The notes under the pieces were generated by a model. That model ran no database searches, was not told the origin of the DNA, and worked only from the letters and a program-made list of their open reading frames with translations. Shown piece by piece: positions 21,893 through 24,519 of a stretch of 64,000 nucleotides of DNA (positions are counted from its first letter, which is position 1; each line of letters opens with the position of its first letter). The position numbers were made by a program, and so were the translations under genes. Origin of the DNA: an uncultured Porphyromonadaceae bacterium (GTDB lineage: Bacteria > Bacteroidota > Bacteroidia > Bacteroidales > Muribaculaceae); contig CAMWRH010000002.1 in assembly GCA_947176605.1 (NCBI GenBank), positions 39,799-103,798 of the forward strand. Reading direction: 5' to 3'.

Positions 21893-21996
21893 ATTAATCG
21901 GACGTGATAGTTAATTATCAATTAGCCAATGTATTGAGGATGGAGAGGGGCGCGTATGGGCCGCATGCGGCCCTGCGGGACTCTCCAAATACAATG

Positions 21997-22101: not shown

Positions 22102-22109
22102 TAGTTTTG
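22102..22109 (+). promoter_or_regulatory. -7 promoter element for the phage-tail-like gene
   Basis: TAGTTTTG matches TAnnTTTG, 17 nt before the ATG at 22127, so the transcript would have a leader of only about ten bases. The -33 TTTG is not seen. Its position argues against the ORF-track start at 21956. Confidence 0.5.
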
Positions 22110-22126: not shown

Positions 22127-24373
22127 ATGAAGCGTAAGAATGTGATGATTGACCTGATGCGCAGGTCGCTTAAGTCTGACCTCACATGCCGCGACGGCGA
22201 GGTGGCCGATTACCGTGGTGTGACATGGCTGGAGCCCGACAGCGGGTCGCCCGATCCGGAGAATCCCGATGTGCGCGATCCCGTAGGGGAGGGGGGAGCG
22301 GAGGTATGCGTGATGAGTATGCAGCCGGAGCGGGATGTGCAGCTTCCTCCGGGGTGCAGGCTGCTGACGCTGCATTATCCTGACAGTGGGGCGGGTAAAT
22401 GCCATATAGTGGCGCTCCAGAGCAACGGCGCACTGTGCTGGCGTCCGGCCGACGGAGAGTCGGCCACCCGCAATATCGCCATGTGGCCCTCGCGTCTGGG
22501 CAGTCTGCGTGGAGCCTGTCCTTACGGCAGATTGGTGGTGCTGGCCGGAAGCGAGGGGATGGGATGGCTGCTTTATGCCGGAGATGAAGGGGAATACGTA
22601 TTTCTTGATTCCCTGCCCGAGGCTCCGGCAATCAGGGTGTCGGCCGATTCGTGCACGCTCGAAGGATACGTGCGCGTGGCCGGAAATCTGCCCGAAATCA
22701 ATGTCGATGTGAACCTTGACGGACTTCCATGTACAGCCGAAGATATCGGAGGATGGCTCACGTCAGCTGATTCCGGAGGGGTGGAGGCGGCTGTCAGAGA
22801 GAGGGTATACGAGGCCGTGGCAGGCGGAATCGATCTGTACATGTCGGAAGCGAGGGGTGCCGGGATGTGGCTCGTGCCATGCCGTGTGGCGGCAGCCTTC
22901 GGCACCGCCCTGCCGGGGATGCCGATTGATAGCGGCGTGGCCTATGCTCCCCCGTATGCCAGAGTGGCTACATGGGCATTGCGTGGGCAGACTCTGTCGC
23001 TGGGACTTGAATTCTCGCTACGTCCGGTCAGTCTGAGGGTGAGTTATGCCTTTACGGCTAAACAGCGGGAGTGGAGTCCTGTATTTCAGCAACTGTCGGT
23101 CTACGTCTCGGCCGAACCGGAATGGCGCACAGCCGCCGACCGTCAGGGCGCTCCCGTGACATGTGTCACTTCGCTTACCCGTCTGTCAGCATCGGCGTCG
23201 GCAGGCACCGGAGTGGCGTTCCGCATGGCGTCGTGCAGCAGCTCAGAGATGTCGGCCCGCGTGGCGTCATCGCCGGATATGAGGCTAAGTGTGCAGGCTC
23301 CCGTGCAGGGAGTGACGGGTGGCACCGTGACCCTGCGCCGGCCGGCTGCATCCGCCGAAGTGTGGACTCCCGACTACAGGGATTTTCTTGCTGTAGAAGC
23401 CGATGGCGTGGCGCTGACCGATGAGGGTGTGGCAGTGCGCAGCGGAGCGGTGCTGCTCACCCCGATGAAGGAGAACGGAGTAGTATACCGTCATCGCGAC
23501 CGCATTGCCGATTCGCGCATACTTGCCGTCACGCAGGCCACGCTGCGCAAGGGGGTCGGGGCAGATGCCCGCCATGCCCTGTACGTGTTCTGCGCCGATG
23601 GAATACGGCAGGCTACTGCCGATGGCCGGGGGGGCTACCATAATGCGCGGCTTGTAAGCCGGCGTGTGGTGGCTGTGGCCGGCGGTCAGTCGCGTTTCGC
23701 CGGTATGCCGGTGGCTGCGGAGTCGGAATCGGGGATATGGTTTGTGGCCGAAGGGAGATTGTGCCATCTGGCGTTGTCGGGCAGTATTTCGGCTCAGGGA
23801 AGCGTGACTGATGCAGAGGCGCCGGGGAATGTGGAAGGCACACCGATGCGCCTGCTTTACGACGGACTCTCGGCATCGCTGATTCTGATTACGTCGCAGG
23901 GTGAATGGCGTGTGTACGACACGGTCGGGAAGAGTTGGCATGAAGTGGCGGATCCCCCGTTGTCGGCCGAGGCGGTAATGCTTCCGCACGCGGGGCGTCT
24001 TTATTCGATGGGAGCCGACGGGGCGGTGTGCCGGCTGAAAGTGAGCATGATGGCTGCAGATGGCGATGACGGTACGGATGGAGATACGGCAGGGATAGCG
24101 CCTCCGCCCGGGGTGAGTCTGGTGCGCACTCGTCCGCTGAAACTTGGCGATCCGTTCAGGCGCAAGAGGATATGCGGAGTGGCGGTGGCTGCTGCGGCGC
24201 GTCTGCGGGTAGAGGGGAGCGATGATCTGAAGGAGTGGGTATGCGTGGCTGATGGCGACTCGCCGCTACGGGCGCTTCATCCGGCGGCCTTCCGCTTCCA
24301 CCGCATTACGGTGACGGCTGATGAAGAGGATACCGACATGCTGCATACCCTCGGTATCGGGTATCGAATCTGA
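22127..24373 (+). CDS. large protein resembling Bacteroidetes phage tail/virion proteins, standing alone
   Basis: A 748-residue protein without signal peptide or membrane segment. It opens MKRKNVMIDLMRRSLKSDLT, then RGVTWLEPDSGSPDPENPDV. Several stretches match, by my recollection, a protein found in tail modules of Bacteroidetes prophages: an early YGRLVVLAGSEGMGWLLYAG followed by FLDSLPEAPAIRVS, a middle QLSVYVSAEPEW, and a C-terminal TRPLKLGDPFRRKRI, RVEGSDDLKEWVCV and FRFHRITVTADEEDTDM. The middle is likely a beta-propeller-like or beta-rich body. It is flanked by housekeeping genes, with no capsid, terminase or integrase nearby, and codon use looks like its neighbours. It could be a domesticated or remnant virion protein. 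No function should be assigned; family call is moderate. Confidence 0.55.
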   Translation: MKRKNVMIDLMRRSLKSDLTCRDGEVADYRGVTWLEPDSGSPDPENPDVRDPVGEGGAEVCVMSMQPERDVQLPPGCRLLTLHYPDSGAGKCHIVALQSNGALCWRPADGESATRNIAMWPSRLGSLRGACPYGRLVVLAGSEGMGWLLYAGDEGEYVFLDSLPEAPAIRVSADSCTLEGYVRVAGNLPEINVDVNLDGLPCTAEDIGGWLTSADSGGVEAAVRERVYEAVAGGIDLYMSEARGAGMWLVPCRVAAAFGTALPGMPIDSGVAYAPPYARVATWALRGQTLSLGLEFSLRPVSLRVSYAFTAKQREWSPVFQQLSVYVSAEPEWRTAADRQGAPVTCVTSLTRLSASASAGTGVAFRMASCSSSEMSARVASSPDMRLSVQAPVQGVTGGTVTLRRPAASAEVWTPDYRDFLAVEADGVALTDEGVAVRSGAVLLTPMKENGVVYRHRDRIADSRILAVTQATLRKGVGADARHALYVFCADGIRQATADGRGGYHNARLVSRRVVAVAGGQSRFAGMPVAAESESGIWFVAEGRLCHLALSGSISAQGSVTDAEAPGNVEGTPMRLLYDGLSASLILITSQGEWRVYDTVGKSWHEVADPPLSAEAVMLPHAGRLYSMGADGAVCRLKVSMMAADGDDGTDGDTAGIAPPPGVSLVRTRPLKLGDPFRRKRICGVAVAAAARLRVEGSDDLKEWVCVADGDSPLRALHPAAFRFHRITVTADEEDTDMLHTLGIGYRI

Positions 24374-24439
24374 GATGCGGCTGTAAGGGTGTCGGTGAGT
24401 CGGTGCTGCACATGCAGGGTGTATGGGGCGTATGGTAAG

Positions 24440-24473
24440 AGTCAGGCCATCCCGGATTACGGGATGGCCTGAC
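24440..24473. terminator. hairpin between convergent genes
   Basis: A 14-bp stem GTCAGGCCATCCCG / CGGGATGGCCTGAC (24441-24454 and 24460-24473) with a 5-nt loop, located between the phage-tail-like gene (plus) and the M13 peptidase (minus). There is no clear U-tract on either side, so its terminator role is inferred from position. Confidence 0.65.
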
Positions 24474-24519
24474 AGGTTATGCTTCCCGGCATGGGTAGGC
24501 CGGGGTCGGGAAGGAGTGA

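Follow-up and report, generated by a model that had tools for sequence, protein, structure and literature searches.

A chromosomal podovirus-type tail nozzle gene and dispersed companion virion genes suggest a gene transfer agent in Bacteroidales

Described gene transfer agents and related phages

RcGTA, which has a long-tailed particle, is encoded for the most part by a single cluster of about 15 kb. The gene set described here shares with RcGTA and its alphaproteobacterial relatives the use of domesticated virion genes, vertical descent, placement at several loci and a non-replicating character (PMC12946183). By comparison, the set here comprises a short-tailed nozzle, an SU10-type capsid and a P22-type portal, and is found in Bacteroidota. 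FpGTA of Faecalibacterium also comes from a gut commensal; this element is GTA-like and resembles a podovirus, includes terminase, portal, scaffold and capsid genes and is near-universal in its genus (PMC12946183). Compared by description, FpGTA belongs to a different phylum and its main operons span 10.5 and 5.5 kb (PMC12946183), whereas the present genes occupy several housekeeping loci in several Bacteroidales families. The Bacteroides phages BKO1-TP3, BS-TP4 and BF1-TP2 carry related nozzle, portal, terminase, capsid, scaffold-like and adaptor genes but, unlike the chromosomal set, have genomes of 64–68 kb with integrase, recombination and regulatory genes.

No GTA of Bacteroidota was found in the literature searched, a search with preprints outside its scope. 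The study of FpGTA saw only lateral transduction in Bacteroides (PMC12946183); according to a statement cited in that paper, gene exchange in Bacteroidales runs at some of the highest rates of any gut bacteria. In the mouse gut, 46 contigs show generalised-transduction or GTA-like patterns, and among the transduction-pattern contigs with a phylum assignment the majority, 83 contigs, are Bacteroidetes (PMC7667829); as support for a GTA in this phylum these patterns are suggestive only. A conserved host-encoded particle system, if true, would add a transfer route that helps to explain gene exchange in Bacteroidales.

The nozzle gene and its locus

The window, the whole stretch of 64,000 nucleotides that was analysed, contains one open reading frame of interest (Table 1). 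The gene lies on contig C2, and the nearer contig end is about 39 kb away. The product carries all the motifs quoted in the initial annotation. Upstream of the ATG at 22127 the same frame stays open to position 21956, and the homologue alignments begin at this ATG. The gene has a GC content of 62.5%, versus 57.3% for the window. Its neighbours encode PRPP synthetase, an amylase-like enzyme, a patatin-like protein, an M13 peptidase, a chorismate-binding enzyme, RimO and FtsY, some of these names being assigned by reading the sequence, and no other phage gene was seen in the examined parts of the window. The initial description of a lone gene amid housekeeping genes, with a −7 element of its own 17 nt before the ATG and a strong hairpin behind it, was thus accurate at this locus. 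The predicted RNA fold of the 137 nt 3′ of the gene (24374–24510) has an energy of −66 kcal/mol (z = −3.98). The inverted repeat within this segment is probably a bidirectional terminator, a role that is only inferred because a T-run is absent.

Table 1. Features of the nozzle locus (positions in the window)
Feature	Position	Strand	Basis
Tail-nozzle-like protein, 748 aa	22127..24373	+	AlphaFold model and Foldseek; relatives match phrog_32516; orthologs at the same locus
Predicted Bacteroidetes-type −7 promoter element TAGTTTTG (TAnnTTTG)	22102..22109	+	Script pattern; consensus match only
14-bp perfect inverted repeat	24441..24473	.	Intergenic; the nozzle and M13 peptidase genes converge here

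In sister species (L022, L023 and L024), orthologs of the gene occupy the corresponding locus, with the patatin-like gene on one side and the M13 peptidase on the other; L023 has three additional genes ahead of the peptidase. The L022 ortholog shares 60% amino-acid identity with the window protein, at a dN/dS of about 0.24, so the window ORF is more than a chance reading frame. The proposal of a domesticated virion protein is borne out. In addition, ftsY–rimO lies near the nozzle gene both in the window and in family f22; the nozzle is on opposite sides of the block in the two cases, and the shared nearness may therefore be coincidence.

The window protein gave no family match in Pfam, NCBIfam or PHROGs and, searched alone, no match among phage records and viral contigs, so that the sequence similarity to phage families suggested by the initial annotation was not borne out for this gene. 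By comparison, its AlphaFold model (pLDDT 84.4, from an alignment of 15 homologues of genus g1) matched podovirus tail nozzles in the PDB, with HRP29 (4e-10), T7 gp12 (9e-9) and P22 gp10 (2e-8) at the top of the Foldseek results and E1004, SU10, Pa223 and Sf6 gp8 as further nozzle matches. Among viral models, the best match was a podovirus protein of 978 aa, followed by a protein annotated as P22 gp10. The TM-scores of the nozzle matches are modest (0.2–0.3 for the top PDB matches, 0.2–0.5 overall) and therefore indicate an architecture in common with podovirus nozzles, not a close superposition. On the basis of this model, with its predicted beta-propeller nozzle fold, the window protein is the tail nozzle of a podovirus (short-tailed phage). 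The protein is thus a virion tail protein, as had been proposed, although of a more specific kind than a generic tail-module protein. Weak PDB sequence matches to eukaryotic WD40 proteins were rejected, as they reflect beta-propeller repeats only. In contrast to the nozzles of P22 and T7, which are among its best solved fold matches, the window nozzle is chromosomal, stands apart from phage context and has no sequence match to a curated nozzle family.

The link to phages by sequence is made through relatives. A profile from the first homologues found relatives of 850–960 aa in other Bacteroidales families, and diverged members of the nozzle family, as distinct from the window protein itself, match phrog_32516, a PHROG family with no assigned function. 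To this family belongs a protein of 898 aa encoded by phage BS-TP4, and BKO1-TP3 and BF1-TP2 have proteins related to it. Several of the 850–960-aa relatives adjoin a P22-type portal (PF16510, E = 2e-39), an arrangement found at L068, L070, L072, L073, L133 and other loci. A neighbour of about 680 aa at several relatives, considered as a portal, proved to be methionyl-tRNA synthetase. Some nozzles are short, at about 410–480 aa.

The companion virion genes

The genome that contains the window holds two genes of the portal family and two of the SU10-type capsid family. On contig C29, capsid (489 aa), scaffold-like protein (273 aa), terminase and portal (498 aa) genes form a compact run, after which come polysaccharide biosynthesis, CotH-type kinase and GH3 genes, and no recognised mobility or replication gene was found beside the virion genes there. 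The terminase was recognised by its position beside the portal and by homology to phage gp51; a search of this genome with Terminase_6N (PF03237) found nothing. The adaptor gene was not seen because C29 ends just past the capsid gene. The nozzle locus is thus solitary, as first described, and is so in related genomes too, but the genome keeps capsid, portal and terminase genes elsewhere, which contradicts the suggestion of a lone new cell-encoded use of a tail fold. Contig C19 of the same genome (G000; loci L150, L093 and L151) is a prophage-like region with terminase, capsid and portal, whose terminase is 63% identical to that of BKO1-TP3. This region is related to BKO1-TP3 and BS-TP4 and contains giant ORFs of more than 3,000 and more than 4,000 aa.

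Strong matches to the large terminase (TerL; E < 1e-70) were found in 48 of 61 genomes of genus g1 (31/37 plus 17/24), most of them incomplete drafts, and 41 of these matches are of the full-length type. With a wider nozzle profile, a nozzle was found in 28 of 30 TerL-bearing g1 genomes, most of which had been picked because a first nozzle search came up empty there. Outside g1, the 19 genomes that bear a nozzle, drawn from nine genera, all contain both TerL and capsid, and their virion genes are single-copy except where a prophage-like copy coexists. The genomes are species representatives, mostly draft MAGs, and the gene maps are simple longest-ORF calls. A second, prophage-like copy of the virion genes accompanies the dispersed one in two genomes of family f22 (L075, G195:C32; L069, G292:C77).

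The modules contain varying subsets of nozzle, portal, terminase, a protein of about 140 aa beside the terminase (phrog_27246), scaffold-like protein, capsid, a small protein and an adaptor-like protein of about 200 aa. Profiles of these families have T4 gp17 (terminase), the phage GP4 portal and the VP1 capsid as PDB relatives, and the adaptor was assigned by a weak fold match to the crAss001 tail barrel protein (best E 2.7e-3). Among the proteins of three related phages, recurrence across many chromosomal loci is confined to virion or packaging proteins, and no such recurrence was found for the integrase, recombination or replication genes of these phages. The sampled flanking genes of the modules are chromosomal.

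The genes lie together in some genomes and far apart in others. In G021, the module genes are within about 12 kb, whereas they are dispersed in other g1 genomes. The nozzle and terminase of G045 are 39 kb apart on one contig, and nozzle, capsid and TerL of G319 lie within about 50 kb. By comparison, the nozzle, capsid and TerL genes map to 1,132, 1,395 and 1,427 kb in G352 and to 831, 604 and 1,560 kb in G295, so that in finished or long assemblies the virion genes are tens to hundreds of kb apart. Since the genes are scattered singly, prophage finders that seek clusters could miss the set.

The g1 portals (L094:5540-7036, L034:15709-17016 and others) are without the C-terminal ~140 residues found in phages and in other families. 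In one g1 clade, which comprises G033, G027 and G004 (L147, L155 and L156) as well as G018, G029 and G040, the terminase match covers the ATPase part only, and a smaller capsid of about 407 aa lies beside portal and nozzle. This clade carries a derived or decaying form; the ATPase-only matches and the short nozzles mean that parts may be lost or repurposed. At the module ends of L133, L135, L144 and L160, two to three copies of genes for proteins of about 155 aa are present, related to phage gp35–37 (phrog_35482).

No lysis gene, receptor-binding protein or regulator tied to the gene set was noticed in the modules read. An S24-type (CI/LexA-like) repressor gene lies inside only three of them, all in g1 (L133:15334-16095, L135:4735-5391 and L144:4462-5103), and is a possible regulator of the set.

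Descent, selection and function

The set has long been inherited vertically, as our comparison of trees reveals, and is under purifying selection. The TerL tree follows rpoB (Mantel r = 0.80, p = 1e-4, 37 taxa), with 21 of 34 splits in common against a chance mean of 0.14, and 12 of 18 within g1. The nozzle tree also follows rpoB (r = 0.74, p = 2e-4), some of its joins being unsure on long branches. Since the deep split that separates the families contributes to the Mantel correlations, the within-genus value of r = 0.68 is more telling. The gene neighbourhoods are shared across families: within g1, the module lies beside rimP–nusA–infB (G007 and G034) or, in further genomes, beside suf genes, and in families f28, f60 and f68 the neighbours of nozzle and portal are again infB and suf genes. 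For close pairs with measurable dS, dN/dS is 0.02–0.13 for capsid, 0.05 for portal, 0.05–0.13 for terminase and 0.09–0.26 for nozzle (0.24 between the window gene and UBA7141), the nozzle being the fastest-evolving part of the set; the more distant pair G000–G007 gives a nozzle value of 0.40 with dS near saturation. Of 58 terminase sequences, 56 have an intact Walker A and 57 an intact C-motif, and almost all retain the nuclease carboxylates.

These observations fit best with a dispersed, vertically inherited, podovirus-derived GTA of Bacteroidales; we give this reading a probability of roughly 0.7. The virion genes of a domesticated podovirus would have become chromosomal genes at several loci, forming a set of nozzle, portal, large terminase, capsid, scaffold-like protein, tail adaptor and the small terminase-linked protein. 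The terminase would thread chromosomal DNA through the portal into capsids, adaptor and nozzle would seal the head and make up the exit tube, and particles, once produced and released, would deliver the DNA to related cells. A GTA is the simplest function because it calls for a motor, portal, capsid, adaptor and nozzle and for no phage replication or integration genes. The genomic traits of such an agent are present: hosts keep phage-derived capsid, portal and terminase genes, these are dispersed (in G352, G295, G319 and G045, and between C2 and C29 in the window's genome), no replication or integration gene is linked to them among the annotated flanks, and long vertical inheritance and purifying selection accompany intact terminase motor and nuclease motifs. 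We consider it moderately probable that this short-tailed-phage GTA is ancient, predates the split of several Bacteroidales families, is encoded by scattered single genes and drives DNA exchange among these gut bacteria and their relatives; Bacteroidota would then have their first GTA, one of the most fragmented known.

The main rival is a cell-encoded particle that packages host DNA without transferring it, for PBSX-like killing or another use of the domesticated podovirus. It fits the same genomic evidence, and the fastest evolution in the tip-proximal nozzle (dN/dS at most 0.26 in close pairs) is as expected under conflict. However, a toxin or immunity gene was not noticed beside the modules, and a killing device would not need the complete head-packaging set that is here under strong constraint; we regard this explanation as unlikely.

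That the genes are pieces of old podovirus prophages, persisting by chance or still mobile, is largely refuted and very improbable. In its favour, the genome does have the prophage-like region of this phage group on C19. In the TerL tree, however, the prophage copies of G000 and G007 fall with BKO1-TP3 and BS-TP4, whereas the dispersed genes are near-universal in the genus, are congruent with rpoB, occupy loci conserved across families, have dN/dS values far below 1 and retain intact catalytic motifs. Neither decay or neutral evolution nor sporadic presence, as in a defective prophage, was found in the dN/dS values or the distribution, and the prophage scar that the initial annotation had offered as an alternative is excluded by purifying selection and vertical descent.

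Recruitment of the nozzle alone to an unrelated cellular role is the least probable reading, and only barely credible: the nozzle is distant from the remaining virion genes of the window's genome, evolves more rapidly than these and is matched in the TerL-negative G028, but it co-occurs with terminase in 28/30 and 19/19 genomes and adjoins the portal or the whole module at L133, L068, L147 and L155. The window nozzle probably still contributes to a particle, because capsid, portal and terminase are kept at another locus of the same genome.

The chromosomal families also suggest functions for PHROG families that have none: nozzle for phrog_32516, capsid for phrog_26635 and, probably, adaptor for phrog_22135. 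In the phage records, PQ571269 gp51, PQ571277 gp7 and PQ571263 gp60 are annotated as tail spike, a product name that looks wrong because these proteins align with T4 gp17-type terminases and carry the Walker A motif KARQWGGST.
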